From assembly GCA_937922655.1 (NCBI GenBank), contig CALAJH010000001.1, positions 186,001-250,000 on the forward strand: a stretch of DNA of 64,000 nt, in the 5' to 3' direction. Shown piece by piece: positions 18,747-64,000 of this stretch (position 1 is its first letter; every line of letters begins with the position of its first letter). The notes beneath the pieces are model-generated. The model was given only the letters and a program-made list of their open reading frames with translations. It was not told the DNA's origin and did no database searches. This DNA is from an uncultured Bacteroidia bacterium. GTDB taxonomy: Bacteria > Bacteroidota > Bacteroidia > J057 > CALAJH01. The position numbers were made by a program, and so were the translations under genes.

Positions 18747-20834
18747 ATGAAGACGTTTTTGCTTTTCATTGTCTGGATTTTTTCTTTTGGGGCGTTGAAA
18801 GCGCAAACCGAGCCTTGCGGCACCATGGCCTTGGACAGCATCCGCCGGGCTTTAGACCTGTCCTTGGGGACGCTTGAAGATTTTGAGGAATGGTTGGCGC
18901 CGTGGATAGCCAAAACCCGGAGACAGGATTCGTTGAGGCGGATGAACAAATCCGCCGCCGTCGTTTACAACATCCCCTGCGTCTTTCACATCGTCTACGA
19001 AAATTCGTCGCAAAACATCTCCGACGCCCAAGTCTTGTCCCAGCTTCAAGTCTTGAACGAGGATTTCAAACGCCTCAACGCCGACACCGTCAATACTTTG
19101 TCGGAGTTCCGGCCCGTAGCCTCGTCCGTCGAAGTTAATTTTTGTTTGGCCCAACAAGACCCCAACGGCAATCCGACCACGGGCATCAACCGTTACAACA
19201 TTACCGGCGGGCCGTGGACCTCGACCGACTTCGACGCGCAGGTCAAACCGCAAACCGTTTGGAATTCAAGCGAATATCTCAACATCTGGGTGGCCAACCT
19301 CAACGGACTTTTGGGTTACGCACAGTTTCCTAACAATTCGGGCTTGGCGGGAATGCCGACCAACGGCGGCGGCGCCAACACCGACGGCATCGTTTTGCAA
19401 TATACGAGCGTCGGCCGGCCGCCGGCCAACCCCTTCACCAACAACAACAATTTGGGCCGTACGGCGACGCACGAGGTCGGCCATTACTTAGGCTTGCGCC
19501 ACATCTGGGGCGACGGCGGATGCTCGGCCTCCGACTATTGCAACGACACGCCCGATTCCGACCAAGCCAACTACGGCTGCCAACTTACGCGCGTTTCCTG
19601 CGGTTCGTTGGACATGGTGCAAAACTACATGGACTATTCGCGCGACAACTGCATGAACCTTTTCACCCGAGACCAACGCACGCGCATGATAACGGTCATG
19701 CAAGTGGCGACGCGCCGCGCGTCGTTAAACAATTCGCCGCGTTGCAACCCTCCGGTCTTGACGCCGGGCGCGGCCTTCGACCTCCATCCCGCCCGGGCCT
19801 GCGTCGGCCTTCCCGTTCGATTCACCGACCGTTCCACCCGCAACCCCACCGGCCGGCTATGGACGTTCGTCGGCGCCAACCTCGAACAAAGCACGGCGCA
19901 AAACCCAAGCGTCGTCTATTACACTCCCGGGGTTTATCCCGTGACCTTGGTCGTTTCCAACGCCTACGGTTCCGATACGCTGACCCGGAACGCGGTCGTC
20001 GTCGAAGGGGCGACGCCCTTGCCCTACACCGAAACCTTCGAAGACGGCGCCCCCGGTTGGACGGTGGACAACCCCGACGACGGAATCACTTGGACCATCG
20101 CCACCATCGGCGGCACCACCCCCGGCAACCGCGCCGCCAAAATGGACTTTTACAACTACAACGCCGTCGGCCAACGCGACGGTTTGCTTTCCCCCCCCCT
20201 GGATTTTCGCGACGTCGCCACTTGTACGCTCTCTTTTCAACACGCCTACCGCCGTTACAACACCTCGTCCACCGACTCGCTGATTATCTACGCTTCGTCG
20301 GACTGCGGGGCGACGTGGACGCGGCTCTTCGCCCGAGGGGAAAGCGGTCAGGGAACGTTCGCCACGCAAACCACGTCCACCAACGCTTTTACCCCCTCGC
20401 AAAGTTCGCAGTGGTGCGGCGGGGGTACGGGTTCGGGTTGTTTTACCGTTAATTTGAACGCCTTTGCAGGCCAAGCCCGCGTTCGCTTAAAATTTGAAGC
20501 CTTCAACAACTACGGCAACAACCTCTATTTGGACAACATCAACATCGCCGGAACCCCCGCCGCAAGAACCGTTTGGCCCGGCGACGCCGACGACAACGGA
20601 AGCGTTACCCTTACCGACACCTATCTTGCCGCCGCAGGGTTCGCAACCGTAGGCAACGCACGCAGCGCCGTAGGAACCCTGTGGCAAGCCTATCCCGCTC
20701 CCTCGCTTTGGACAAGGGATTTCATCGTCCAAAATCAATTCGTCAACGCCCGAAGCGTCGACGCCAACGGCGACGGAACCGTCAATTTGTTCGACGTCGC
20801 GATAACCATCCTACATCGGGGTTTGACGCGATAA
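18747..20834 (+). CDS. Secreted M43 (pappalysin-like) metalloprotease with dockerin-like C-terminus
   Basis: A 695-residue exported protein: signal peptide (1-20, ending LKAQ), a metzincin catalytic domain with HEVGHYLGLRHIWGD (about 242-256, three zinc His and the catalytic Glu), the downstream MDYS Met-turn, a PKD-like domain (about 345-425, TPGVYPVTLVVSNAYG), and a jelly-roll-like segment (about 430-600). The last 88 residues start WPGDADDNGSV and end DANGDGTVNLFDVAITILHR: two EF-hand-like loops as in dockerins, and a near relative of the tail of the protein at 51402-52229. There is no T9SS type A sorting domain, so this tail may serve for sorting or docking. Confidence 0.85.
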   Translation: MKTFLLFIVWIFSFGALKAQTEPCGTMALDSIRRALDLSLGTLEDFEEWLAPWIAKTRRQDSLRRMNKSAAVVYNIPCVFHIVYENSSQNISDAQVLSQLQVLNEDFKRLNADTVNTLSEFRPVASSVEVNFCLAQQDPNGNPTTGINRYNITGGPWTSTDFDAQVKPQTVWNSSEYLNIWVANLNGLLGYAQFPNNSGLAGMPTNGGGANTDGIVLQYTSVGRPPANPFTNNNNLGRTATHEVGHYLGLRHIWGDGGCSASDYCNDTPDSDQANYGCQLTRVSCGSLDMVQNYMDYSRDNCMNLFTRDQRTRMITVMQVATRRASLNNSPRCNPPVLTPGAAFDLHPARACVGLPVRFTDRSTRNPTGRLWTFVGANLEQSTAQNPSVVYYTPGVYPVTLVVSNAYGSDTLTRNAVVVEGATPLPYTETFEDGAPGWTVDNPDDGITWTIATIGGTTPGNRAAKMDFYNYNAVGQRDGLLSPPLDFRDVATCTLSFQHAYRRYNTSSTDSLIIYASSDCGATWTRLFARGESGQGTFATQTTSTNAFTPSQSSQWCGGGTGSGCFTVNLNAFAGQARVRLKFEAFNNYGNNLYLDNINIAGTPAARTVWPGDADDNGSVTLTDTYLAAAGFATVGNARSAVGTLWQAYPAPSLWTRDFIVQNQFVNARSVDANGDGTVNLFDVAITILHRGLTR

Positions 20835-30700: not shown

Positions 30701-32928
30701 CAAGCACGATAACCTTGTCGGCGCGAACGACCCGCAACGGGGTCGTCGAACCCGCCAACCGGTTCGAATATCTATGGAACACCGGAGCGACGAGCGCAAG
30801 CATCAACGTTGCCGCCGGGGGCGTGTATCGCGTGCGGGTCATCGACCGTTACGGTTGCGAGGCCGAATCCGAACATTCGGTCTATATGCCGCCATTGCCA
30901 ACGCTGGATCTGCCGATACAAACGGCCTGTTTGAACGGAGCGCCCGTTCCGATTTCGTTCTCGCCTCCCGGAGGAACTTTACGCATCAACGGCACGCAAG
31001 TGTCGACGGGCGTGTTCAACCCCGGATTTTGGGGCGTGGGAACGCACACGATAAGCTATCGCTACGTTACGCCCGAATCCTGCGACTACACCGTCGCAAG
31101 AACGATTCGCGTGGTGAACCCCGCGCTAAACGTTTCCATGGGTACCACTTGTGCCAATGCCGACCCGTTCCCGATAAGTTTTTCTCCCCCCGAGGCCGTA
31201 TTGCGCATCAACGGACAAAGCGTCGCGCCGGTTTTCGACCCCACGGTTTGGGGGACGGGTACGCACGTCGTTTCGCTGACCAACCCTTTGCAAGACGGCT
31301 GTTCGTATCAATTGACGTTCAACGTGACAGTGGGGCCGGCCACGCTGACGGCGACGACAAGCGTTCTCCAAGCCTCGTGCGCCCAATGTTCGGACGGCGG
31401 TGTGCACATCACGCCGTCGGGCGGCACGGCGCCTTATCGCTTCTCCTTGGACGGACAAAACTTTTCTTTGGGCTATCAGTTCCATGGATTGGCGCCGGGC
31501 AATTATACGCTTCACGTCCGCGACGCAAACGGATGCAAATTTTCCACGCCCTTCCGGGTGACGGTATGCGCCACGCCCCAAGAATTGAACGTCGAAACCA
31601 TGAGCGCGACGTCGGTTCGACTAAGTTGGCAGAACGTCGGCGGGCCTTTCTCGCTCCGTTTTCGTCGCGTGGGAACGCCCGCATGGTCGGTCATGAACAA
31701 CTTGCAAAACCCCTCGATAGTATTGACGGGACTTTCGCCCGGCGCGACGTACGAATTTTACGTGGTTACGGCGTGCGGTACGGCAAGCGCGATACGAAGA
31801 TTCACCATGGGACAATACCCGGCCTGCCCGTCGCCGCAGTTTTCGGCCGTCGTCGTGACGACGACGGAAGTCGGTGTTTCGTGGAACGCCGTTGCGGGCG
31901 CCGCGCATTACGAAATCGTCTTGGTTCCCGACGGCGGCGGCGAACCGACGGTGCATACCACCACCCAAACTTCCCTTACCCTTGCCGTACCTTCGCCGAC
32001 GTTTACGATACGTTTGCGGGCGTTGTGTACCGAAGGGAACGTTTATTCGCCGTGGACGGAGCGAGTCGAAACGGCGGCCGCGTGTCCCCATGCCGTCAAT
32101 ATCCGCTTGCAATGCCAAAACGGCCTATGGCGGGCGAGCTGGGAATCGTCGGGGGGACTTCCGGATTTTTGGACGGTTTCATGGCGCTCGTCGAACGCGG
32201 GCAACGAATGGATTAACGCGACGGTTCACGGCACGGCGTTCAACTTCACCTTGCCCGCAACGTTGGGCGCGGGCCTGACGTATTCGTTTCGGGTTCGGGC
32301 GCGTTGCGGGTCGTTTTTCGGGCCGTGGTCTTCGACAACGACGTTTTTCAACGACTGCACGACCGCCGAAGCCTGTCCCAACGCCCTGAACATCCGCGTC
32401 GAATGTGAAAACGGCCAATACGTGGCCCGTTGGACGACCGCGGGCGGCGGCGCCCCCGAATACTGGACGCCCATGTGGCGGCGGAACGTGCCGGGAGAAA
32501 ACTGGATTAACGCCACCATCGCGGGCAGTCAATTTTTTTACGTCCTTCCCGACCTTGCGGCCAATACGAACCATCAATTTCGCCTGCGTTCGCGTTGCGG
32601 AACGACGGTTAATTCGCCGTCGCCCGTAACGTCGTTTACCACGAATTGCGGGGCGAAATTGGCGGAAAACGGCGAATTTCGAGCGAGACTTTATCCCAAT
32701 CCCGCCGACGCAAGCGTAGAAATCGAATTTTTCCATCCACAAGACGAAAACGTGCGCATTGTGCTTTTCGACGCGTTGGGACGCCGGGTATTTACGCGCG
32801 AGGTGGAGGCCTTCGCCGGAGCAAACCAAGTCGACCTTGATTTGTCCCTTGTCGCTCCGGGCGTGTATTTGGCCGTTATCGAAACGGCCGGAGAAAGGTT
32901 GAGTTTGGGCCGACTGATTAAAAACTGA
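27772..32928 (+). CDS. Giant secreted adhesin-like protein: LamG, PKD/Ig-like, SprB and Fn3 repeats, T9SS sorting domain
   Basis: A 1718-residue exported protein. In order: signal peptide (1-20, AAAFAQ); a LamG/concanavalin-like domain (about 28-200; FRGYIDEVRIWAKALS is its hallmark); a long series of Ig/PKD-like repeats of about 85 residues, each with a Cys, a YxW(E/F)PG core and TTTYTVxG followed by GC; two related HYR-like repeats; one SprB-like repeat (GGTAPYRFSLDGQ, APGNYTLHVRDANGC); and Fn3 and Fn3-like modules. The final 80 residues (ARLYPNPADASVEIEF to LSLGRLIKN) are a type A T9SS sorting domain, so it is carried over the outer membrane and anchored. A role in adhesion or gliding is inferred. 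Confidence 0.88.
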   Translation: MFKTIWLTALGICYGAAAFAQPQKWLNTTNAQCGMRSGDVDVKFTALTVEAVVYFEQTPTNGYVSIVSKHANANASDANYVLRPDRFQFVTGTNTLVTVNNTCALQTGRCYHLAGVYDGQYGYFYVNGCLVNRVPATGNLRQNNVNVGVGFRSNNAELFRGYIDEVRIWAKALSRQELRQGMFRSLNAAEHPDLRAYFDFDDYEGGNTVVNLTNEVGFDGVLCTAVVSDNELCGENPQYSQEFRAFNNGPGCRNGTLTLGVEPSIPGAVYQWSGPGNFYATGESIALLNFNATQIGVYRVIRTTDCCVDTAYTQVYMLCEQVPISSSAPQPDLAMGGFATPIWTTVILPCNDTVTGNYVPWPNISANAYPPSIQVGGSCTLVASGGAQTYVWEPGGYTGNVVTVNPTQTTTYTVYGYSNGCVTMRTVTVFVDCPQIIASSSSSVVCQGEQVLLSVADATLYKVYVWEPNYNLSSPNGAYVFAVMDTTVTYTLTGYTPEGCSNQTTISVQVGDGVSGIFASQTHVCEQTRVELTAVGNNLQWYHNGEAIPAPSPLPWIVYPTQTESYRVTGVDFWGCPFDRSVRIDVTPALNVSATSASVCPGQTATLSAAGADDYVWFPGGLTGASIEVSAQQTTVYTVVGTREGFCPDSAFATLAVGPFPFGTSPATRNVCNYQSPTLSVTNPPAGATYVWEPATYLNTTVGPEVTVQTPQASITYTVVGNLPDGCEDIRTFSLSVTGTIEVQVQALQSQVCRGASTILTASGALSYIWFPGGHVGPYVDVVPTETTTYTVEAFGNEICHTLATVTVTVVDAANIALESDALFICPNQPVRLWGRGGVTYHLNPGNVFLAEGETLTVRPQQTTNYTLVGTSAFGCSAVAQTTVNVLPPAFLQPPVVNGRDTVCLGSDAVFTAERPLLWEPYGLVSAQLVLPNVQQTTTFTAYEIEGYECRGYVVKTVRVAQPIQTSIVGPSVVCNASTITLSARTTRNGVVEPANRFEYLWNTGATSASINVAAGGVYRVRVIDRYGCEAESEHSVYMPPLPTLDLPIQTACLNGAPVPISFSPPGGTLRINGTQVSTGVFNPGFWGVGTHTISYRYVTPESCDYTVARTIRVVNPALNVSMGTTCANADPFPISFSPPEAVLRINGQSVAPVFDPTVWGTGTHVVSLTNPLQDGCSYQLTFNVTVGPATLTATTSVLQASCAQCSDGGVHITPSGGTAPYRFSLDGQNFSLGYQFHGLAPGNYTLHVRDANGCKFSTPFRVTVCATPQELNVETMSATSVRLSWQNVGGPFSLRFRRVGTPAWSVMNNLQNPSIVLTGLSPGATYEFYVVTACGTASAIRRFTMGQYPACPSPQFSAVVVTTTEVGVSWNAVAGAAHYEIVLVPDGGGEPTVHTTTQTSLTLAVPSPTFTIRLRALCTEGNVYSPWTERVETAAACPHAVNIRLQCQNGLWRASWESSGGLPDFWTVSWRSSNAGNEWINATVHGTAFNFTLPATLGAGLTYSFRVRARCGSFFGPWSSTTTFFNDCTTAEACPNALNIRVECENGQYVARWTTAGGGAPEYWTPMWRRNVPGENWINATIAGSQFFYVLPDLAANTNHQFRLRSRCGTTVNSPSPVTSFTTNCGAKLAENGEFRARLYPNPADASVEIEFFHPQDENVRIVLFDALGRRVFTREVEAFAGANQVDLDLSLVAPGVYLAVIETAGERLSLGRLIKN

Positions 32929-44860: not shown

Positions 44861-46117
44861 CTATTCCGTACTCAATTTTTGCCGATGTACGCGAGCGCCA
44901 AAAATTGCTTCAACGACATAAACGCCTCGAAGCGTCTCAGGCAATGGAATTTGTGTCGGACCGTCGGCGTCAAAAGTTTTTTCCATCACCACCCGCCCCG
45001 TCAAGTCCAACAACCGAAACGTCGCCGGCCCAACTTCGGGTAAGGAAACGGTAACCGAACCCGATGCAGGGTTGGGGTATATCGATACGGGCGGCTGAAA
45101 TTCCATACCTTCACGTCCAAACAAGCTTATCGTTTGGTCGCCGACGATATTGTTCGAGGGTGTACATGAAACGTTGTTCACCCAACGACAAAGCCTTTGA
45201 CGAATAAAGTCGTAGGCTTGCGCGGCGCGAACGGCATTATAAGGATAGAGATGACCTTCGGTGGAAAAAGTCAATAAGTCGGCGCAAACGCCCACTTCGC
45301 GGGCGGCGTAAACGTAACGTCCCGAACCGTCCATGACCAACGGAGGTTGAACAATGCCGAACAGGGGCTCGTCGGTGTCGTAAGGAACGATGTCGTCCAA
45401 GGCGCCGTGCACGGCAATAACGGGCGCGTCGCCGGTTTCAATCCAGTCGCGACGGGCAACGGCGCCACTGTATGCTATAACGCCGGCCACTTTCCACGAC
45501 GCGGAAGCGTAATTGCCGGAGGCGCTGTTGATGCCTCCCATTTGATTCAAAATCTCGGGGTCGGCAATCTGGGCAAATTCTTCGGCCTTGTCCAAATACG
45601 CAAGGTGCAAACCCGTTACCGCTCCGGCCGAGTAACCCGCAAAATAGATTTTGTTGGGGTTGATTTTGAAATGCACGGCGCGTTTGCGCATAAACCGTAC
45701 GGCCCCCCGAGCGTCTTGCAACGCCCGTATCACCGCCCGAATCATATCTTCGGATTTTGTCGGCTCCAACGCCCCCAAACGATAGCCAATCGAAACGGTA
45801 ACATAACCTTTACGGGCAAAATAATTGCAAAAATCCACGGCCTCGGGCAAACGCTTGTCGCCGGCGACAAACGCGCCCCCATGCATATAAACAATGCAAG
45901 GACGATTGACGGCGTTGTCGAAAGCGGGAGTGTAGACGTCGAGTTCCAACCATTGAGGCAAACCCAAATAGTTGTTTGCCACGGCGTAAACCGCCGTGGT
46001 ACGGTTCACGACGGGAAACAAATCGGCCATGTACCGCGCGTTGGAAGCACATTGGGCCTTCAACGTTCCCGCCGCCGACAACCCAACGATAATTAGTGTA
46101 AACAAGTGTTTTTTCAT
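44861..46117 (-). CDS. Secreted alpha/beta-hydrolase (esterase) with T9SS sorting domain
   Basis: A 418-residue protein: signal peptide (AAGTLKAQ), an alpha/beta-hydrolase domain with YMHGGAFVAGDK (oxyanion loop, about 77-88), FAGYSAGAVTGLHLA (nucleophile Ser, about 158-172), and a likely Asp/His pair in GALDDIVPY and TEGHLYPY. The order resembles type B carboxylesterases and feruloyl-esterase-like lipases. The last 75 residues (VSIYPNPASGSVTVSL onward) are a type A T9SS sorting domain, so the enzyme acts outside the cell or on its surface. Substrate unknown. Confidence 0.85.
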   Translation of the reverse strand: MKKHLFTLIIVGLSAAGTLKAQCASNARYMADLFPVVNRTTAVYAVANNYLGLPQWLELDVYTPAFDNAVNRPCIVYMHGGAFVAGDKRLPEAVDFCNYFARKGYVTVSIGYRLGALEPTKSEDMIRAVIRALQDARGAVRFMRKRAVHFKINPNKIYFAGYSAGAVTGLHLAYLDKAEEFAQIADPEILNQMGGINSASGNYASASWKVAGVIAYSGAVARRDWIETGDAPVIAVHGALDDIVPYDTDEPLFGIVQPPLVMDGSGRYVYAAREVGVCADLLTFSTEGHLYPYNAVRAAQAYDFIRQRLCRWVNNVSCTPSNNIVGDQTISLFGREGMEFQPPVSIYPNPASGSVTVSLPEVGPATFRLLDLTGRVVMEKTFDADGPTQIPLPETLRGVYVVEAIFGARVHRQKLSTE

Positions 46118-46273: not shown

Positions 46274-49200
46274 TTATTCGAGGCTCATTTTGACGGTGCG
46301 CGTCATTTCACCCATACGGAACTCTACAATGTAAAGGCCGCGGACGTAATTGGAAACGCTGACGGGAACGACGTTCAAACCGCTTTCCACCGCAAATTGA
46401 TTCGCAAAAATCGTGCGCCCGGCAAGGTCAAGGACTTTTACCGAAGCCAAACCGGGATTTTCGGCGTCGAAGCGGATGGAGAATTCACCTTGGTTGGGGT
46501 TGGGGTAAACGCTCAGCACGGCGGGTTCGGCGTCGGCAAGTTTCGCGCCGCCCTGCGTTACGAAGAGCTGAGACGCCGGCCATGCCAACGTCGTGGCGCC
46601 GCAACGCGTGCGTACACGGTATTCGTACGCGGTATTCGGCAACAAACCGGAGATGGTTTGGGAAGTCGCGGGAGCCAAAACGTTTATCGACGTCCATACG
46701 CCCGTAACGTTGGCACGTTTGTATTGAACGTGGTAGTGCGTCGCTTGGCTGACGGGAGTCCAATTGACAACCGCGGAGGTCGAGGTAACGTTGGTAATCC
46801 AAAATTCGGGATTGACACAACCGACAAGTTGGCCGGAGGTCGTCGTAAACGTAATGGTAATACTGAAAGTCGAGGGCGTGCCGCCTTCGCAAAGCGTTTG
46901 CACCTGCGCCACATAACGCGAATTGGCTTGCAATCCCGTCAATACCAGGCTGTTGCTACCCGTGGTAATAATCGTCCAGTTGGCTTGCGTCAGCAAACGA
47001 TATTGCACGACATAATTAATGCCTTCGGCGACGGGGTTCCACGACAAGGTAACTTGGTTGGAGGACAAGTTGGAAACCTGTACGTTTTCCGGCGCGGGGC
47101 ATTGGTCGACCACTTCGAGGTTGTAGGCAAACGACTGCGAACAGCCTGCGGCGTCCGTAGCGGTGACAACGTACAAGCCGGCATAAAGGTTTTCAAAAAC
47201 GCCCGTCTCGTTCGACTCCGAACCAAGCGTATAAGTAAAGCCACCCACTCCGCCCGTAGCGGTCACGGAAATCGAACCGTTGTTTTGGGTGATGCTCGTA
47301 GGACCTTCGGCGGAAACCAAAGCGACGCTAATTGCGGCGCCGACCACCACTTCATAGCTTGCGGTATAGAAACAGCCGTTGGATTCACCGGAATAGGTGA
47401 CGACATGCGTTCCGGGGCCGGCCAATACGGGGCTGAATTCGTCGCCGTCCACTCCGGGGCCGCTGAAGGTACCGCCGGCCGGTTGTCCCGAAAGCGTGGT
47501 ACGCGCGCCGTTCGCACAGTAGAATGCGTTCAAACCAAAGACGGTAACAACGGGGTCCGCGGTAACTTCAATCGTTACGGACGTGGAATAGGTACACGGA
47601 CCGGAAACCCCCGAATAAGTGATGGTGTAGAGTCCCGTTTCGGAAGGGATAAACGTACCGTCCATGCCGACGGCCCCTTCGGGTTCGGAGGTAAACATAC
47701 CGCCGTCAATCGTCGCACCGAGTTGGATGTTCGAATTGGCCAAGCAAATCGCTTCGGGAGCGCCGGTAATCATGGGCATGGGTTGTTCGTAAACCGTAAC
47801 CCCGATTTCGTTGGAAATCAATATCGGGCATTCAAAGTAGGATACCGATACGGCGTAAACCCCCGAAGTTTCGACAACCAATTCGCTGCCAAAAATACCC
47901 AAAGGCTCGCCGTTCGCCCACCATTGAATAACCGCGCCATCGAGGTCGGTCATGGCGGAAAGAGTTACCGAACCGCCTTCACATATTTCCGTCGGGCCGC
48001 CGGCCGAAATCATAGCCACTTGCGGACAAAGCGGGAGGAGAGTGGTGAAGACCGTCGGGCAAGCGTCAAGCATGACTTGGTCGAAGTCTTGCGGGATGGC
48101 CATCGAATTGACGATGGTAAAGGGCGCCGACGTCGCGATGGACGGATTGGGATTGACACGGAAACGAATAGTGTATACCAATCCCGTTTCGGTAACGGAG
48201 GCGTCGGGCGGGGTCGCCGCAAGCATCACTTCCACCGAAGAGCCGTTGTCCATAGCCATAGCCGTGGCGTTGGGAATAAAGTCGCCGGCGGTCGCGCTGA
48301 CGAATTCAAGATAAGCGTTGTCGTAAGCAAGCGTGGCCGTGACGGCGTTAAACGCAACATTCGAACCCGTAACCACGATTTGTACGTCAAATTCGCTGTT
48401 CGGCTCGACTTCCGCCGGGGCATTGACGCAAATGCTTCCTTGCGGAACGAACTCTATCACCTCGATGGTAATTTCCGCCATGCCAAAGCAACCGTTGGCG
48501 TCTTCGCCGTAAACGCTAAAGGTCGTCGTTTCCTGCAAACCCACCGTATTGACCGTTTGACCGAACGCTTCAACCAATAGATTGTCGGGATACCATTCGT
48601 AGAAAACACCGCCCGAGGCCGTGAGTGTAACGCTTTGACCCGTGTAAACCGTCGTCGAAGAAGCGGAAACCTCAATTTGCGGAGCGGGATTGACAAAAAT
48701 CGTAAACTCTACGACCGACGAACATCCCAATTCGTTGTAGCCGATGACCGAATAGGTTGTCGTTTCGGTGGGATAAAAGAATGTAAAGTCGCCTTCTTCA
48801 CCATTCGACCACAGATAGAAATCGGCGCCAATCGCTCCCACTCCGGCTATATCACCCACGCAAACAACGCCCGGCGAAAAGACTTCGATTTCGGGATTTG
48901 CCGCGACGTTGATGGTTACTTCCTCGATGTCAAGACAGCCAATTTCGTTCTGACCGTAAACGACGTAAGTCGTGGATTCGTTGGGAGAGACGGTGATTTC
49001 ACTGCCTTCGGCCATCATTTCGCCAAAAATCCAGAGATAAGAGGCTCCGGGTTCGGCGCCAACCGCCGTCAGCGTTACGCTTTCGCCTTGACAAATGGTG
49101 TTGTCTTGGTCGGAAGAAAGAATTTGTACATCGGGGTCGGGATAAACCGTTACAATCGTCGAGGCTAGCCCAAAACATCCATTGGCATCGATACCAACGA

Positions 49201-51364
49201 CGGTATATTCATACGTTCCGGGTTCGGCGGGATAGTCGACAATAAATTCACCTTCCGTGGTAACAATATCGCCACCCCAATCGTATATGCCATTTTCACC
49301 GGCGCCCGTGGCGGACAAAATCACGCCCAAGCTAAGGCAGGTTTCGGGAGTAAGGTTAATGATGGAAATTTCGGGATTAGGCAACACCGTAACTTCAAGA
49401 CCAGAAGATACAATGGCGTCGCAACCGTCTTTCAAAACTTGTAGATAATAAACACCCGCGGCGGTGGCGGTATAAGAGGCGCCGGTGGCTCCGTTAATGG
49501 TCGTCAAACCATTGCCGACATCGACCCACCATTGGAAAGAAGCGCCCGCATCATCGGTGACGGCAAACAAATCAACGGAACCTCCGTTGCAGAACGAGCT
49601 TTCGCCTTGATAAGCAATCTCGGCCAAAGAGGGACAAGTACCTTCCCCAACAAAAACGATGGTAAAGCAATCGGTGCCTTGGCATCCGTTGGCGTCGGTA
49701 CCCGTTACACAAATCGTAACTTCGCCCGGTTCGTCGGACATGCCCGTAATCGTTTCTCCTTCTTGGCCCGTAGACCAAACATAGCTCACGGCCCCGGAAG
49801 CGGTGAATTCAACTTCTTGTCCGACCAATGCGGTCGTCGGGCCGTTTATCGTTACGGTAGGGTTCGGATTGACGGTAACCGTCACCGTGGCGCCGCTACT
49901 GCAACCGTTGGCGTCCGTACCGACGACCGTAAAAGTGGCGGTAGCTTCGAGGGTAACGTCCACTTCGGAACCTTCGACAAACTCTACACCGTCCGTCCAT
50001 ACAAAATCGACGTTGCCGACGGCGGTAAGCGTCGTCGTGCCTCCGGCGCAAATCACGGACGGCTCGGCAAAGGCGGAGAATTCAGGCAACGGATTGACAA
50101 TCACTTCGATGCCGTTGGTAATCAAATCATCGCAACCTTCTTTAATCACTTGCAAGACGTAAACGTTGGAAGCGGTGGCTTCATAAGTCGGGGACGTGGC
50201 TCCCGGAATGGGGGTAAGGCCGCCGCCGGCCGTCCACCACTGATAGCTTGCGCCCTCGGAATTGATTATTTCGCCCACCAAAATCACGCTTCCGCCTTCG
50301 CAGAAAGTCGTCGGCCCTGTGGCAAAAATCGCGCCCTCGGGGCATTCGGTCACAGGGATGTCGATGGTAATGTAGGTCGTACCGCAGGTATTGTTAAGGT
50401 CGGTGTAGTTGGCGTCAAGGGTCGTTCCGGACGTAGCCTCGCCGTCGGTTACAATGAACATATCGGCGACGGTCGTAGAAGTCGGGTTGGGATTGACTTG
50501 GAAAACAATGGTAAAGAGTACGCCGCCGGGGCCGTTGCCGGAATTTTCACCCGAAATCAACACGTCCACTATACCTAAAGCGTCGTTGATGGTCGGAGGA
50601 ACTTCTTCGAAGTCGGAGATATACTCGTCCGAACGGGTAACCGACAAAGCGTTTAGGTAGATGGTGTTGTAGCGGATTTGGACGGCGATGGAGGAAAAGT
50701 CGCGGTCGGCGTTGTCGATGCGGACGGTAGCCGTAAAACTTTCACCCGCGCCAACCGTCGAAGGAGCAAGAATACACAGCTCGTTGACTTGGAGAACGTT
50801 GCAGTTTCCGCCAATACAGGTTTCGTCACCTTGTGCGTCAAGGAACAATTGCTGTTGTGATTCGCCGACGATTTGGACGGCCTCAGCGTTGGAGAGCGCA
50901 ATGAACGACGTGGTTTGCAAAGGCGCGGAGGCTTTACAGCGCAATTGAAGATTGAAAGCCAAACCCGTGGCTACGGGCACAGGGTTCGGATTTCCACCGA
51001 TGCCTTGACGACCGACCAAAAGTTGAATCAGGCCAGAGGAGTTCACGGGCCCCATTGACGGACCGGACGGCACGTTAATATAGCTGATATTGTTGGTGCC
51101 GCCGTCGAAAAAGCCGCCGCCCAACTGGATAACCGTGCTTTTCGTGTTGGAAGTTATCTCGAAATGATTAGGGTCGAAGGTGATGTCCACCCGAATCGCG
51201 TTCAGATTCTCGATGGTGCCATTGAGGACGACGGGAACCAAAAAGGTTTCGCCCGGATTGACCACGGCGGGCGCATCGGCGATATATGCCAGTTGTGCCC
51301 GGCTTAACGCTCCCGTACAACAAAATACAAAGAGGCTAAGCCATAAACATAGAAATTTTCTCAT
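46274..51364 (-). CDS. 1696-residue secreted protein with three cohesin-like modules, PKD/SprB/Fn3 repeats and T9SS sorting domain
   Basis: After the signal peptide (about 1-24) come three cohesin-like beta-sandwich modules: about 25-193 (VNPGETFLVPVVLNG, IRVDITFDPNHFEI), 194-333 (VGAGESFTATVRI, AVQIRYNTIYLNAL), and about 975-1115 (PAEVEPNSEFDVQIVVTG, TATLAYDNAYLEFV). PKD/Ig-like repeats with a GC and TTTxxVxG signature lie between and after them, then a SprB-like repeat (VTATGGVGGFTYTLG), two Fn3 domains and a type A T9SS sorting domain (LSVYPNPNQGEFSIRF). The shape recalls a scaffoldin: several cohesin-like modules on a surface anchor. Ligand binding is not shown. It follows the 275-residue cohesin/dockerin-like gene by 37 bases. 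Confidence 0.82.
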   Translation of the reverse strand: MRKFLCLWLSLFVFCCTGALSRAQLAYIADAPAVVNPGETFLVPVVLNGTIENLNAIRVDITFDPNHFEITSNTKSTVIQLGGGFFDGGTNNISYINVPSGPSMGPVNSSGLIQLLVGRQGIGGNPNPVPVATGLAFNLQLRCKASAPLQTTSFIALSNAEAVQIVGESQQQLFLDAQGDETCIGGNCNVLQVNELCILAPSTVGAGESFTATVRIDNADRDFSSIAVQIRYNTIYLNALSVTRSDEYISDFEEVPPTINDALGIVDVLISGENSGNGPGGVLFTIVFQVNPNPTSTTVADMFIVTDGEATSGTTLDANYTDLNNTCGTTYITIDIPVTECPEGAIFATGPTTFCEGGSVILVGEIINSEGASYQWWTAGGGLTPIPGATSPTYEATASNVYVLQVIKEGCDDLITNGIEVIVNPLPEFSAFAEPSVICAGGTTTLTAVGNVDFVWTDGVEFVEGSEVDVTLEATATFTVVGTDANGCSSGATVTVTVNPNPTVTINGPTTALVGQEVEFTASGAVSYVWSTGQEGETITGMSDEPGEVTICVTGTDANGCQGTDCFTIVFVGEGTCPSLAEIAYQGESSFCNGGSVDLFAVTDDAGASFQWWVDVGNGLTTINGATGASYTATAAGVYYLQVLKDGCDAIVSSGLEVTVLPNPEISIINLTPETCLSLGVILSATGAGENGIYDWGGDIVTTEGEFIVDYPAEPGTYEYTVVGIDANGCFGLASTIVTVYPDPDVQILSSDQDNTICQGESVTLTAVGAEPGASYLWIFGEMMAEGSEITVSPNESTTYVVYGQNEIGCLDIEEVTINVAANPEIEVFSPGVVCVGDIAGVGAIGADFYLWSNGEEGDFTFFYPTETTTYSVIGYNELGCSSVVEFTIFVNPAPQIEVSASSTTVYTGQSVTLTASGGVFYEWYPDNLLVEAFGQTVNTVGLQETTTFSVYGEDANGCFGMAEITIEVIEFVPQGSICVNAPAEVEPNSEFDVQIVVTGSNVAFNAVTATLAYDNAYLEFVSATAGDFIPNATAMAMDNGSSVEVMLAATPPDASVTETGLVYTIRFRVNPNPSIATSAPFTIVNSMAIPQDFDQVMLDACPTVFTTLLPLCPQVAMISAGGPTEICEGGSVTLSAMTDLDGAVIQWWANGEPLGIFGSELVVETSGVYAVSVSYFECPILISNEIGVTVYEQPMPMITGAPEAICLANSNIQLGATIDGGMFTSEPEGAVGMDGTFIPSETGLYTITYSGVSGPCTYSTSVTIEVTADPVVTVFGLNAFYCANGARTTLSGQPAGGTFSGPGVDGDEFSPVLAGPGTHVVTYSGESNGCFYTASYEVVVGAAISVALVSAEGPTSITQNNGSISVTATGGVGGFTYTLGSESNETGVFENLYAGLYVVTATDAAGCSQSFAYNLEVVDQCPAPENVQVSNLSSNQVTLSWNPVAEGINYVVQYRLLTQANWTIITTGSNSLVLTGLQANSRYVAQVQTLCEGGTPSTFSITITFTTTSGQLVGCVNPEFWITNVTSTSAVVNWTPVSQATHYHVQYKRANVTGVWTSINVLAPATSQTISGLLPNTAYEYRVRTRCGATTLAWPASQLFVTQGGAKLADAEPAVLSVYPNPNQGEFSIRFDAENPGLASVKVLDLAGRTIFANQFAVESGLNVVPVSVSNYVRGLYIVEFRMGEMTRTVKMSLE

Positions 51365-51401
51365 CTTGTTAAATTATATATCGATGACTTGGTATTCAAT
51401 T

Positions 51402-52229
51402 TTAGTGGGTTAAACCAAAGTTTTGGAGCACGGCGATAATATCGGCGGCACTGATTTGACCGTCGCCGTTACAATCCAAATAGCGGTTGTTTACGCCAAG
51501 AGTCGAGGTTGCCCACGGCGCGGGCGCGATTTTTGCCGACCATGTTACGCCTTGTTGGTCGCCGGCACGAGCGTTGCCCAAAACGCCGGGGTTTTGTCCC
51601 GCCAAAAGCAAAGAATAATCCAAAGCGTTGACTACGCCGTCGTTGTTGGCGTCGCCGGGCCATACGTAATCGACGCCCGAGGAGACGGTCAAATCTTGAC
51701 TGTCGCCGGTGAGATTGACTTCGTAAAAAAGATTGTCGATGTAGCGGACGTTGGATACGGAAACGGCGCCCACGGAACCGTTTGTCGCGTCGTCACGGAC
51801 TTTGAGCGTAAACGTACCCACAAGCCCGTTTACCGAGGCGAGGGCGTTGCCCAAAACGGCAAGGTTGAAAACGGCGGTACCCGAAGCGAGCGCGGAACCG
51901 TCGTAGTCTTCGTAAAATCCCGGGGTTGTGGCCGAACCGCCCGAACCCGTACCGCTGTTCACCGCACCCAATATCGAACCGGAATAATCGCGCACCAACG
52001 TTCCCCCCGTTCCCGTAACCTCGAATACCGAAGGGTCGAATTGAAAGGTAAACGACAATCCGCGGAAATTGGAAATAGGCCCGTTAAGGGTGATGGGAAC
52101 GTTGACGACCGTCCCCGGGGCCGCGTCGTTGGGCAGGTCTATGGCCAACTGCGCCCGGCTTTGAGATGCGCTCAAGCCTACAAAGGCCAACGCAACCCAT
52201 GCAAATAGAACTAAGCGTAAATGCCTCAT
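51402..52229 (-). CDS. Small secreted cohesin-like plus dockerin-like protein
   Basis: From ATG 52229, 275 residues: signal peptide (about 1-27, SQSRAQ); a cohesin-like module (about 28-180; PGTVVNVPITLNG, LSFTFQFDPSVFEVTG); then an 88-residue tail with two EF-hand-like loops, WPGDANNDGVVNALDYSLLL and DCNGDGQISAADIIAVLQNF, ending GLTH. The tail matches that of the M43 protease at 18747-20834 in both loops, the GNAR and W..APAPW spacer and the GLT end. Long spacing between the loops (about 45 residues) differs from classical dockerins. First gene of a two-gene operon with the 1696-residue protein. Confidence 0.8.
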   Translation of the reverse strand: MRHLRLVLFAWVALAFVGLSASQSRAQLAIDLPNDAAPGTVVNVPITLNGPISNFRGLSFTFQFDPSVFEVTGTGGTLVRDYSGSILGAVNSGTGSGGSATTPGFYEDYDGSALASGTAVFNLAVLGNALASVNGLVGTFTLKVRDDATNGSVGAVSVSNVRYIDNLFYEVNLTGDSQDLTVSSGVDYVWPGDANNDGVVNALDYSLLLAGQNPGVLGNARAGDQQGVTWSAKIAPAPWATSTLGVNNRYLDCNGDGQISAADIIAVLQNFGLTH

Positions 52230-58526: not shown

Positions 58527-60587
58527 TTATCCTTCGACGACAAAATCCGGCGTCCGCCCATAAGGAACGTCGCCCGACGCACGTTCTTTCGGCAGGTGAA
58601 AAACCGTTTTCGCTTCTTTTAAGGCGTGGGGGTGGCGCGTGCCGTCGGGCTCAAATTCGCACCCCGGCAAAATATGTCCATCCCCGCCCGCCAAACAACG
58701 CCTGTCGGTATCGAAAACAACAAAAACGCGCGTGGCGTAAGGCGCCAATTCAACGACGTCGCCGCGATTGAACGGCTTGGGAAGGCCGCCCGAAAAACGT
58801 CCGCCCGCGTCGTAACCCGCGGACAAAGGGTGCGGCGCGGGAAAATACGCCCGATTTTCCCACCGAATCCACGCTTGGGCCTCGTCGCCCAATTTTACCC
58901 TCTTTCGAGCGGCGGTCAAATTGACGAACGCCGCATAACGCATGCCGTTTTTTTCAAACGACAACGCATATACGTCGTCTTCAACGAGCCGATAATCGTA
59001 ACTTGTCAGCGGACGATGGGGAAAATGCATCTTGTACAAACGCGACAAATCGGGGCCGTAACGCGAAGGCTCGTCGGAGGTGAAAAGCAAATCGCCGCAG
59101 ACGACGTTAATCCAATAATTGGAAAAACGAAGCTCGTGGGGAAGCCGGGTTTTGTAGTCGCGCAACAAAAACACGTCGGGGTCGTGGCCGACGCCGGGGG
59201 CGAGCCACAAACGCGTGCGAACGATAACGTTGCGCAACGCGTTGAGCGTGGAAATACGTTCACGGTTGCCGAGAAATTTGCCGATTTTGAGGTCGGCAAC
59301 GGGGCCGACGTCCGGCCCCATGCGCCAATAATCAAAAGGCTTGCCGACTCCCCGGCACGGGATGCCGCAGGCCAAAACGGACGCGCGTTTGTCCACCGCC
59401 CGGCCGATTTGTTCCAATGCCGCAAGCAAACGTTCGCCCCTTGTGATTTTTTCCTCTCCTACGCCCGGCGCGTAAAGAAAGTCCAATTTCAAAAAATCGA
59501 AACCCCATTCGTCGATGACGCGGTCGAAAATGCGGCGAAGCTCGTCGTCGTCGGGGTCGTAACGATAAAAATAGGGTTTCGACCCTCCGGCCCACATCGG
59601 ATTGAACCCCGCAACGATTTTACGTTTGAGTCGTCCGAAAGCCTCCGAACCCTGTTGGCAAACAAAAGGCGCCAACCACAACCCCGCCTTAAATCCCGCA
59701 TCCTTAATCGCCCGGGCCAAGCGCCCCATTCCACCCTTGAACTTGTCGTTTTCGCGCCAATCGCCTATGGCGCGTTGCCAACCGTCGTCGATTTGGAAAA
59801 CGTCGATGGGAAAGCCCGAGTATTCGTCGATAAGACGCAAAATCAGATTTTCGTCGATGCGGTTGTAAAAATTATACCAAGTCGTAAAGCCGGTGAGCGG
59901 ACGCGAAAAATCACGTCGCGGTTCGTAAAACCGCCAAAACCATCGAAAACGCATCGTTTCGCCCGGTTCTACGACCCGTCCTTCCACATCCGCCGCCGCG
60001 CTCAAAATTCTTTGCGCGTCGTCCCACTGAAAATAACCGTACGCGTCGGACTCGAACGCGGCGGAAAAAGCGCTTCCGTCGGGCAAACGAAACATTGTTT
60101 TTTGATGGGCGACAAGGCCGCCGGCATCAACCCAAGCATAGTCGCCGTACGGCAAGGAAATCGAACGCAAAAACCGACGCAAAGGACGAATTTTTTCCCG
60201 CAAATCAAGTTCTTGCGTCATCGTCCACCCTTGAAAACCGTTGACCGTCATTCGAGTTCCCTCGGGAAAACGAACCACCGCCCAAAAACGAAGTTTGCGC
60301 AAGACCAGCGGCGCCCGTGCAACAAATTTCACCGTCCGGCCTCCGTCAATGAGTTCGCACCACGCTTCGAGATGCTTACATTCAAGGCCGTCGTCCAAAA
60401 CAAAGTCGTGCCGAAAGTCTCTTCCGTCCGCAACATACTCGACAACGCAACGGCGAAAATCAAATTCGTTTCCCGGAACGAAAATCGGCGGAGGAGCGGC
60501 GGGATAGGAAAAAGAAAAGTCGGCGCCCGGCGAATCGGAAGAGGAAACAATCGAAAAACGGGAAAGAAAATCCGAACGCCGACTCAT
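58527..60587 (-). CDS. Alpha-galactosidase-like glycoside hydrolase, GH36 family
   Basis: A 686-residue protein with an N-terminal beta-sandwich and a TIM barrel. TTWYNFYNRIDENLIL, PIDVFQIDDGWQRAIGDW and GFDFLKLDFLYAPG (nucleophile Asp in LKLDF) are GH36/GH-D clan motifs; GPDVGP with the following loop should hold the acid/base Asp. No signal peptide is seen, so it works inside the cell on imported alpha-galactosides such as raffinose-type sugars. No transporter or regulator is next to it. Substrate inferred from family only. Confidence 0.85.
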   Translation of the reverse strand: MSRRSDFLSRFSIVSSSDSPGADFSFSYPAAPPPIFVPGNEFDFRRCVVEYVADGRDFRHDFVLDDGLECKHLEAWCELIDGGRTVKFVARAPLVLRKLRFWAVVRFPEGTRMTVNGFQGWTMTQELDLREKIRPLRRFLRSISLPYGDYAWVDAGGLVAHQKTMFRLPDGSAFSAAFESDAYGYFQWDDAQRILSAAADVEGRVVEPGETMRFRWFWRFYEPRRDFSRPLTGFTTWYNFYNRIDENLILRLIDEYSGFPIDVFQIDDGWQRAIGDWRENDKFKGGMGRLARAIKDAGFKAGLWLAPFVCQQGSEAFGRLKRKIVAGFNPMWAGGSKPYFYRYDPDDDELRRIFDRVIDEWGFDFLKLDFLYAPGVGEEKITRGERLLAALEQIGRAVDKRASVLACGIPCRGVGKPFDYWRMGPDVGPVADLKIGKFLGNRERISTLNALRNVIVRTRLWLAPGVGHDPDVFLLRDYKTRLPHELRFSNYWINVVCGDLLFTSDEPSRYGPDLSRLYKMHFPHRPLTSYDYRLVEDDVYALSFEKNGMRYAAFVNLTAARKRVKLGDEAQAWIRWENRAYFPAPHPLSAGYDAGGRFSGGLPKPFNRGDVVELAPYATRVFVVFDTDRRCLAGGDGHILPGCEFEPDGTRHPHALKEAKTVFHLPKERASGDVPYGRTPDFVVEG

Positions 60588-61266: not shown

Positions 61267-64000
61267 TTAGGACACGGGCAAGGTAACGGTGAAGGTCGTT
61301 TGTCCGGGTACGGATTCGACATCGATTTTTCCGCGATGTTTGTCGATAATTTTTCGGGAAATGTCGAGGCCGAGTCCGCTTCCCTCGCCTTGGGGCTTGG
61401 TGGTAAAAAAGGCGTTGAAAATTTTGTCCATGATTTCCGGGGGAATGCCGGAACCGGAGTCGGTGATTTTGACCACGACGTTGTTGTCTTTGTGTTTGGC
61501 TTCGACGCGCAACTCGCCGGCGTTGTTCATCGCTTGCAAGGCGTTGTGAATCATATTGGTCCAGACTTGGTTGAGTTCGTCGGGATGCCCCATAATGACG
61601 GGGAGGTTGGGGTCGAAGTCTTTGACCAACTTGACGGCCTTCATTTGGTTGCTGTACAAAGTCAGTACGGTTTCGAGTCCTTTGACGACGTCGGTTTCGA
61701 CGGGGTCTTCGGATTGTTGTTTGTGCGAATAACTTTTGAGGGCGAAAACGATTTTTTGGGTCTTGGCCACGGCCAAACCGATGTTGCTCAGGTTGAGTTG
61801 CATTTTTCCGACCATCGCAACCATTTCCATCAGCTCATGCGCGGTGGGTAATTTAAAGAGCGGGAGGAAAGGGTCGAGGTCTTTGAAAAGACCGATTTTG
61901 ACAAGGTCGCGCGAAAGGTTGTCGGCGTCGGCCACGCCCGCCGCCTCCAAAAATTGACTGATTTCTTTACGATATTGACGCTCTTCGCGGCTGGAAAGCA
62001 CGACGGCCTGTTCGGTCGAACGCCGTATCATGTCGAAGAACAGCGCTTTTTCTTTGTCGGTCAAAGCGTTGAAAACGCCGGGATAGGACTTTAGAACTCT
62101 CGGAAGAAGCTCTTCGAGGTTGGCGTTGGCGGCGTTGATGGCGCCGATGGGCGTGTTGATTTCGTGCGCAACGCCGGCAATCAACTGACCGAGAGCCGCC
62201 ATTTTTTCCGACTGTACCAGTTGGTCTTGGGTTTTGGTGAGATTTTCGTAAGCGGCGGCCAATTCTTGATTGCTTTTTTCGAGTTCGGCTTTTTGTTTTT
62301 GAACTTCGGCCGTACGTTCCTTGACGATTTTTTCCAACTCTTCCTTTTGCCGAACAAGCCGGGCGGAATTGAGCTTGACGGCGCCGAAAACCACGCCGCC
62401 GAGCGCAACGGCAAAGAGAAGCATGGCCCAAACGGTTTTGTACCACGGCGTGGCTATCGCAAAAGCAAAAACGTACTCTTTGCTTACAACCCCGACGCCG
62501 TTTTTGGCCTGCAAACGAAATTTGTAGTTTCCGTTGGCTAGGCCCGCAAACTTGACTTCGGCTTGGGTTTGCCAAGGCGACCATTCGGTTTCGCCCGAAC
62601 CCTCGAGCAGATAACGATATTGCGTCCCATCGGCGTTAAAATACGAGGGAAAGGCAAAAGAGATTGCAACGGCGTTGAGAGAAAAAGGAAAGGTCGGTGT
62701 TTGGTCGGTTGGTTGAAAATATACGGGCGCGTTGCGTGCACCGCTCCACGCACCGCCGAAATACACCGAATCCCGTCCAATAACGATGCTCCGAATCAAG
62801 ACGGAAAAGTCTTTGTTGGGGGAAAACTCGCGTTTGCGGTCGTAACGCATAAGCGCCTCTTGATGTGCGACCCACACGCGTTCGTCGTTCAAAAAGAAGG
62901 CTTCGGGCTTTTTGTTGAAAACGTTGATGGGCAGGGCGTCGTCGAACTTAAAGTCGCTTGCTTCGAGCGTAGCCAAGGTCAAACCCGTAGGCGTAAAAAG
63001 CCAATAGCGCGTGTCGGACTCGGAATAAAAATCACGGGGCGCGGGGCCGAAAACCTTGGTATACTTTTCGTTCAAAACGAATTTGTTGTCGCCGGGCAAA
63101 AAGTCAAACATGCCGGACTTTGTTTGAAAAGCGGGTTTGCCGACAATTTTACGGACGTAAACCGCGCCGTCGCTCAATCCGTCCTTGCCGCCGTATCTGA
63201 CAACCGTACCGCCTTTGACCCACGCCAGCCCGTGCGAACTTGTGCCCAACCACAAATTTTCCCCGTCTTCAACAACGGAAACGGCCTCAAAATTTACCCC
63301 CTCGATGGGGCCCAAGTCTTTGACGCCGCCCGCATCGGCCTGAAAACGGTTCACGCCCTTGGCATGACAAACGTAAAAACGTCCCGCTTGTCGGGAATCG
63401 GAAATCGAAAAACAAGGGATGTCGTTGAGATAAAGGGTTTTGGCGCCGCCGGTAACGTCGTAAAGCCCTTGGTTGGTGGCGGCGACCAATCGCGAACCGA
63501 TTTTTTTGAGCGACAAAACCTCGGCGTTCAAACCCGCGCCGGCAAATCCGCCGCCCGCCACCTCGCCGACAAAAAGACCCATGAGCGTGCCAACGTACAG
63601 TTTTGTGCCGTCTTCGACGATGGACGTGATTTTTCCCGAAATTCCCGAATAGCTGAAAACGGGCAACGAGGGCCGGACAAGCGTAAGACCGTAAGCGTGG
63701 GCTATCCACGCGCCGTTTTCGGCGTCGAGAAAAACGCTGTATATTTCATCGGACGGATAACCGCCCGCCTTGGAATAACGGTTCAACACCGCGCCCGTCG
63801 ACGACAAATGCATCGCGCCGCCACTATACGTCCCAATAAGCATGGAACCGTCCTTACCCATCGAGCCCGTGAAAATACCCGCGTTACGAAAGAGGTCGTT
63901 GGCGCCGCCGCTCATCGGCAAAAATTTGCCGCCCGAAGCGCCAACGAACATCCCTTCGTTCTCCGTACCGACGTAAACTTTGCCGTCGGGGGATTGGGCC
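61267..64000 (-). CDS. Beta-propeller sensor histidine kinase (N-terminus outside the window)
   Basis: The open frame runs from TGA-side end 61267 to the window edge, about 910 residues visible. The N-terminal part is a propeller of repeats (SPDGKVYVGTENEG at the edge, GWIAHAYGLTLVRPSLPVF), then a Y_Y_Y domain (LLEGSGETEWSPWQTQ), one membrane helix (about 515-540), a coiled coil, HisKA with LIAGVAHEINTPIGAINAA (phospho-His) and HATPase_c (NQVWTNMIHNALQAMNNAG, GSGIPPEIMDKIFNAFFTTK, GEGSGLGLDIS). The ligand sensed by the periplasmic propeller is unknown. ATG 63951 is internal; reading continues in frame to 64000. Confidence 0.88.
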   Translation of the reverse strand, partial: AQSPDGKVYVGTENEGMFVGASGGKFLPMSGGANDLFRNAGIFTGSMGKDGSMLIGTYSGGAMHLSSTGAVLNRYSKAGGYPSDEIYSVFLDAENGAWIAHAYGLTLVRPSLPVFSYSGISGKITSIVEDGTKLYVGTLMGLFVGEVAGGGFAGAGLNAEVLSLKKIGSRLVAATNQGLYDVTGGAKTLYLNDIPCFSISDSRQAGRFYVCHAKGVNRFQADAGGVKDLGPIEGVNFEAVSVVEDGENLWLGTSSHGLAWVKGGTVVRYGGKDGLSDGAVYVRKIVGKPAFQTKSGMFDFLPGDNKFVLNEKYTKVFGPAPRDFYSESDTRYWLFTPTGLTLATLEASDFKFDDALPINVFNKKPEAFFLNDERVWVAHQEALMRYDRKREFSPNKDFSVLIRSIVIGRDSVYFGGAWSGARNAPVYFQPTDQTPTFPFSLNAVAISFAFPSYFNADGTQYRYLLEGSGETEWSPWQTQAEVKFAGLANGNYKFRLQAKNGVGVVSKEYVFAFAIATPWYKTVWAMLLFAVALGGVVFGAVKLNSARLVRQKEELEKIVKERTAEVQKQKAELEKSNQELAAAYENLTKTQDQLVQSEKMAALGQLIAGVAHEINTPIGAINAANANLEELLPRVLKSYPGVFNALTDKEKALFFDMIRRSTEQAVVLSSREERQYRKEISQFLEAAGVADADNLSRDLVKIGLFKDLDPFLPLFKLPTAHELMEMVAMVGKMQLNLSNIGLAVAKTQKIVFALKSYSHKQQSEDPVETDVVKGLETVLTLYSNQMKAVKLVKDFDPNLPVIMGHPDELNQVWTNMIHNALQAMNNAGELRVEAKHKDNNVVVKITDSGSGIPPEIMDKIFNAFFTTKPQGEGSGLGLDISRKIIDKHRGKIDVESVPGQTTFTVTLPVS

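Follow-up and report, generated by a model that had tools for sequence, protein, structure and literature searches.

A cohesin-dockerin system linked to T9SS sorting tails, in a split form, in the genome of an uncultured Bacteroidia bacterium

Results and Discussion

Two neighbouring genes for a putative adaptor and scaffold

Do two adjacent cohesin genes of an uncultured Bacteroidia bacterium belong to a cellulosome-like surface assembly, and if so, which proteins would be attached to it? These genes lie in the window, by which we mean the whole stretch of 64,000 nucleotides that was analysed (C1:186001-250000, in a 3.58 Mb assembly with a completeness estimate of 100%). An earlier note on this DNA had assigned to one operon a cohesin-plus-dockerin-like protein and another of 1696 aa, which combines three cohesin-like modules with a T9SS sorting domain; both open reading frames were confirmed, and both proteins exceeded the Pfam cut-offs. 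We refer to the former protein as P2 and to the latter as P1.

51402..52229, minus strand: P2 adaptor, 275 aa, with a signal peptide (..SRA/Q), one cohesin and a C-terminal dockerin, without a T9SS tail
51684..52166, minus strand: P2 cohesin, matched by a profile made purely from the fused cohesins of relatives
51405..51665, minus strand: P2 dockerin, with which the protein ends, ..NFGLTH
46274..51364, minus strand: P1, scaffoldin-like, 1696 aa, with three cohesins, Ig_7 repeats, an SprB-like repeat, two fn3 domains and a T9SS type A tail
50810..51316, minus strand: P1 cohesin 1, approximately residues 17-185
50369..50782, minus strand: P1 cohesin 2, from the cohesin searches of the genome
48041..48436, minus strand: P1 cohesin 3, from the same searches
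46286..46510, minus strand: P1 T9SS type A sorting domain (TIGR04183)
44861..46117, minus strand: esterase of BD-FAE type, the downstream neighbour of P1, which itself has a T9SS type A tail and lacks a dockerin

The genes for P2 and P1, both on the minus strand, are separated by 37 bp. P2 scored 42.2 bits for Cohesin and 31.1 bits for Dockerin_1, and P1 scored 57.8 bits for Cohesin (three stretches) and 39.4 bits for Por_Secre_tail, all of them above the gathering scores; the tail of P1 also scored 36.6 bits with TIGR04183. Cohesin 1 of P1 is the weakest by Pfam and is clear in the local profile, of which it is itself a part. Pfam found no CBM in P1 or P2, and promoter and terminator scans gave results near chance level. 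The neighbouring esterase is probably outside the complex.

Cohesins of the whole genome

We then searched the whole genome for cohesins in two ways, one of them in six frames, and found five cohesins on three proteins. Two of these are P1 and P2 in the window, and the third is encoded on contig C44, where its gene adjoins a dockerin-tailed gene (dockerin at C44:36482-36739).

C44:38067-38852, minus strand: C44 anchor, 262 aa, a single-cohesin protein with a signal peptide and a T9SS tail (TIGR04183, 33 bits)

All three proteins score above 24.1 bits, the gathering score of Cohesin (PF00963), and the tails of P1 and the C44 anchor pass the TIGR04183 cut-off for a T9SS type A sorting domain. 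The cohesin-like modules proposed earlier were thus borne out against PF00963, and the window cohesins are also tied to the cohesin fold by a profile search against PDB sequences, in which a profile from the five cohesins of the genome retrieved cellulosomal cohesins of solved structure (best 3l8q, E 3.2e-10). Among 14 control genomes, a cohesin was found in Methanosarcina only, which speaks against a chance result.

A variant dockerin at the end of 23 proteins

Plain Pfam dockerin counts were dropped, as 9 of the 14 control genomes gave weak matches at E <= 10; given this noise, we used a profile derived from the genome's own module. It detected 23 intact dockerins at E 1e-25 to 1e-42, the profile being made from these same copies, and one degenerate dockerin. 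All 23 intact copies, which are spread over many contigs and have no internal stops, are protein-terminal, with 0-2 aa remaining; they belong to 22 cargoes and the P2 adaptor. None of the 23 dockerin-tailed proteins has a C-terminal T9SS tail, in a genome with 134 T9SS-tail matches. Most of them have a signal peptide, and the residue past the cleavage site is often Gln. The degenerate copy (C55:41897-42082, also L249:9904-10296) has one TGA stop and is a decaying member of the family.

The consensus of the module comprises approximately 87 residues (VWPGDANNDGxVxxxDxFLxAxxYGxTGPARxxxGTLWQAYxAxxxW..GxxVNxxxLDANGDGxVNLFDVAxTVxNRGLTR), in which two canonical calcium loops (F-hand) surround a conserved insert with two tryptophans. 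When compared with dockerin type I (PF00404), both DxNxDGxxxxxD loops are present in the alignment and a relative's model shows two helices, but the size is approximately 87 instead of 60-70 residues, with an insert between the loops, so that the module is a variant. P2 lies above the Pfam dockerin cut-off, and many other members lie just below it. The 22 cargoes share a conserved end, RG-x-[ST]-[RH], and the P2 dockerin is a divergent copy within the set (..ADIIAVLQNFGLTH), ending as in the relatives described below.

The earlier note had pointed to a single dockerin-like metalloprotease at some distance from the operon, and we found it 25.4 kb away.

18747..20834, plus strand: M43 metallopeptidase (Pfam M43) with PKD and a dockerin tail, 695 aa
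20571..20831, plus strand: C-terminal dockerin of this M43 protease, ..HRGLTR

The set extends well beyond that proposal, with 22 dockerin cargoes instead of one and the single-cohesin T9SS anchor on C44. The suggestion that the assembly is possibly aimed at protein would fit the five of 22 cargoes that are peptidases by Pfam (M43 twice, an S8 subtilase, one trypsin-like and one C25-like), but it is too narrow, as the remaining cargo is mixed. This includes a PETase-like hydrolase, a GSDH dehydrogenase, a copper monooxygenase domain, a weak heparinase-like match, SBBP propellers, and CUB, LRR, Reeler and fn3 proteins (CUB, LRR and fn3 being of adhesion type). Pfam showed no cellulase or CBM among the dockerin proteins, and no glycoside hydrolase family above the cut-off except for a match to the C-terminal domain of GH85 within fn3 repeats. 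Elsewhere in the window, a DPP7-type S46 peptidase (25328-27538, minus strand) is adjacent to a T9SS-tailed laminin-G/Ig_7/fn3 protein of 1718 aa (27772-32928, plus strand); together with the dockerin-tailed peptidases, this pair fits a protein-degrading lifestyle. The window also contains a Reg_prop/Y_Y_Y sensor histidine kinase (61267-63951, minus strand), adjoining a weak melibiase-like match at 58527-60587.

The same dockerin in a fused form in relatives

Next, we looked for the same dockerin in relatives. Samples at the class, order and phylum level were used together with a scan of named genomes, which gave 327 confirmed loci, of which 80 were fetched. Most of the relatives are Bacteroidota, joined by some members of KSB1, Balneolales and Melioribacter. 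In 141 of the 152 complete cases, the dockerin is followed by 200-290 aa (median 248); the local profile found a cohesin in 121 of these 141 stretches, and all of the 78 stretches that were aligned contain Por_Secre_tail. A terminal dockerin characterizes 23 of 23 cases here and 1 of 152 elsewhere (p 7e-28, a value that ignores relatedness). The spacer between dockerin and T9SS tail is a Pfam Cohesin in 12 of 18 class and order members, it matches the cohesins of this genome at 94.7% in hhalign, and its structure model resembles solved cohesins (best TMt 0.79). The AF2 model of the homologous module in a relative (pLDDT ~95) likewise has a cohesin fold, all 50 listed Foldseek matches being cohesins. 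As read from these alignments and profiles, the relatives encode cargo, dockerin, cohesin and T9SS tail as one chain. The dockerin-cohesin-T9SS tail block (for example, L188:5001-5999) is a widespread C-terminus of very different proteins in Bacteroidota, with 327 loci confirmed in one scan, and it is possibly a self-docked stalk ahead of the sorting domain.

The sole terminal dockerin among these 152 cases occurs in G316/SKYG53, a member of the same order, and is of the split type with 54% identity. That genome also encodes P1-like proteins with a single cohesin, which continue up to a T9SS-like tail, and it is possibly an intermediate or an independent case. The split form is thus known from one lineage, with 22 copies here and one in one distant relative. 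In the phylum sample, dockerins and cohesins co-occur (25/31 vs 72/265, p 9e-9), but we set this aside as proof of pairing, because many pairs share one chain and the genomes are related.

We also searched the examined loci of this genome with a profile made from fused cohesins only. It matched P2 (E 9.8e-13) and the C44 anchor (1e-10), and left the P1 cohesins unmatched; judged by these profiles, the P1 cohesins are of another subtype than the fused ones. The C44 anchor is what remains when the cargo-dockerin part is removed from the fused protein, and the cohesins of P1 would take the divergent dockerin of P2. At its helix 2 end, the dockerin is NYGLTH-like in fused relatives and NRGLTR-like in the 22 split copies, which is possibly a compensating change of the interface. 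Given that the split dockerins are altered at this position, the cohesin-dockerin pairing may have drifted.

A dockerin in place of the T9SS tail

Two cargo families were compared with their relatives. Among 30 relatives of the GSDH cargo, 26 have a T9SS tail at the end (20 by profile and six by eye) and none ends in a dockerin. For the M43 gene of the window, all 12 complete relatives have a T9SS-type tail (eight by profile and four by eye), and again none of the 12 ends in a dockerin. The alignments of many further M43 relatives stop at approximately residue 605, right before the start of the dockerin, and their total length is similar. In the two cargo families examined, the dockerin occupies, by alignment, the position of the relatives' T9SS tail.

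Predicted docking in a relative

To assess docking, we considered AF2 models of the fused protein of relative L188. The dockerin-cohesin-tail model showed a pLDDT of 91.8 and a pTM of 0.71, and dockerin-cohesin alone showed a pLDDT of 92.8 and a pTM of 0.85, with linker residues 84-87 below 50. By simple calculation, undocked domains should give a pTM of at most 0.62, and docked ones a pTM of 0.69-0.88. Given the pTM of 0.85, the placement of the dockerin on the cohesin is confidently predicted in the fused protein of this one relative. Foldseek listed only cohesins for the docked model and was uninformative on the interface. The docking predicted in the fused relative supports binding between such modules; binding here would depend on calcium, and the pairing of particular cohesins with particular dockerins in this genome would follow the subtypes described above.

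Proposed mechanism and its alternatives

The sequences establish, at their own level, the module identities, the terminal position, the absent T9SS tails, the fused relatives and the two families with a replaced tail. Based on these, we propose that cohesin-dockerin surface display on a T9SS base has taken the place of T9SS tails on the cargo, and we consider this reading probable. Approximately 22 exported proteins would have the variant dockerin at the end, with the T9SS type A tail gone, and this dockerin would plug into a cohesin on T9SS-tailed proteins. The carriers would be either the minimal C44 anchor or the three-cohesin P1, reached via the P2 adaptor, which would act as a bridge to P1, and their T9SS tails would anchor the assembly outside the cell. 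In origin, the chain of cargo, dockerin, cohesin and T9SS tail, whole in relatives, would have been split in this genome. The direction would be from fused to split, as we take the fused form to be older because it is broadly distributed. In the simplest account, the cargoes would have lost the sorting tail and would rely on cohesin-T9SS carriers to be attached at the surface.

How, then, would the cargo leave the cell? T9SS cargo passes the SprA channel CTD-first, and a CTD-less fusion served as the control in secretion tests (PMC10994853); therefore, dockerin cargo needs a carrier or another route. We tentatively suggest, at somewhat less than an even chance, that the T9SS signal is provided in trans: the cargo would fold in the periplasm and join a cohesin carrier there, and the pair would cross the SprA channel. 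Few carriers would then serve approximately 22 cargoes, in a hitchhiker secretion derived from a split dockerin-cohesin-sorting-domain module. Co-export of cargo through T9SS with a cohesin partner is a plausible and attractive hypothesis. It counts against the overall proposal that five cohesins for 22-23 dockerins are few, and a monomeric anchor would have to be abundant. Our literature search turned up no relevant report of T9SS cargo that lacks a CTD or takes its export signal in trans.

Alternatively, the cargo may exit by vesicles, lysis or an unknown exporter and then be caught outside by T9SS-anchored cohesins. This is a version of our best explanation that differs in the export step alone and has classical cellulosomes as its model. 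The same parts list would serve it, and a CTD-anchored scaffoldin with C-terminal-dockerin enzymes has been proposed for Ca. Stygibacter, according to part of its description (PMC8542988). However, no other outer-membrane export route was identified and the relatives of two cargo families use T9SS tails, so that capture outside the cell seems rather unlikely.

We also considered the possibility that the dockerin variant is a new T9SS sorting domain, which either the translocon itself or an outer-membrane protein devoted to this task would read, and that the cohesin proteins are unrelated adhesins. Its exact C-terminal location on 22 diverse cargoes, the conserved RG-x-[ST]-[RH] end and the position of the relatives' T9SS tail would suit such a tag. 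In the relatives, however, the dockerin lies within the chain, ahead of a normal T9SS tail, so it is not the tag there; several members are Pfam dockerins with calcium loops, and AF2 docks the module on a cohesin. This makes a new sorting domain improbable. It is likewise improbable that the two domain types are structural only, forming a stalk or an adhesive surface with no pairing between proteins: dockerin and cohesin in the same chain of relatives could make a rigid stalk, but here the modules are on separate chains, P2 excepted, and a partnerless terminal dockerin on 22 unrelated cargoes would be left unexplained. Finally, it is hardly conceivable that frameshifts in annotation or assembly removed the cohesin-T9SS parts after each dockerin, as the single degenerate copy with its TGA might suggest, since 23 separate loci stop at the same residue without internal stops, the whole genome has only five cohesins, and the six-frame search found none directly past the dockerin stops.

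Comparison with known systems

The genome contains a large and coherent cohesin-dockerin system tied to the secretion machine of the Bacteroidota themselves. Cohesins and dockerins have been described as lacking in the cellulolytic Bacteroidetes genomes studied (PMC5831590, PMC6247017), and in the open-access literature that we searched, neither the fused ending nor the split nor the tail replacement was described. The fused ending in hundreds of relatives and the split here would amount to a testable shift of the secretion tag from cargo to carrier. Should export in trans prove true, T9SS would be able to export protein complexes; either way, the system would provide a new variant cohesin-dockerin pair, together with a modular means of displaying proteins on Bacteroidota.

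The cellulosome-like surface assembly of the earlier note stands in so far as a T9SS-anchored scaffold with dockerin partners is the best reading. A scaffoldin with several cohesins and proteins bearing dockerins, enzymes among them, are present, whereas a cellulose-binding module and cellulases or hemicellulases are not seen in the parts examined; strictly speaking, it is no cellulosome, because no cellulase and no CBM were seen. Clostridial and ruminococcal cellulosomes share with it the cohesin fold, the dockerin with two calcium loops, an adaptor with cohesin and dockerin, a multi-cohesin scaffold and a single-cohesin anchoring protein. They differ in that they are anchored to a Gram-positive wall, whereas here T9SS tails are found on a Bacteroidota cell, the dockerin insert is long and the cargo is mixed.

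Among known systems, the complex proposed in silico for Ca. Stygibacter (Cloacimonadota) comes closest, as far as the consulted part of PMC8542988 describes it. It has a cohesin scaffoldin with a CTD for surface attachment and enzymes with a signal peptide and a C-terminal dockerin, including S8 and C25 peptidases; unlike the present system, it belongs to another phylum, its 3755-aa scaffoldin has CBM2/3 and few enzymes are named. Neither a fused form nor a replaced tail nor a cohesin-T9SS anchor on its own appears in that part of the description. It also mentions the Planctosome of freshwater Planctomycetes, a cellulosome-like system of another phylum proposed for polypeptide degradation, and our comparison follows this mention (PMC8542988).

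T9SS type A cargo (Por_Secre_tail, TIGR04183) resembles the dockerin cargoes in its protein families, its signal peptides and the C-terminal position of the module, but here the dockerin replaces the sorting domain, which other proteins carry. In Tat hitchhiker export, a signal-less partner is carried by a signal-bearing one, although the machine and the membrane differ from those of T9SS. By analogy, we hypothesize that a similar kind of export may operate in this genome, with the cohesin proteins as the signal-bearing partners.
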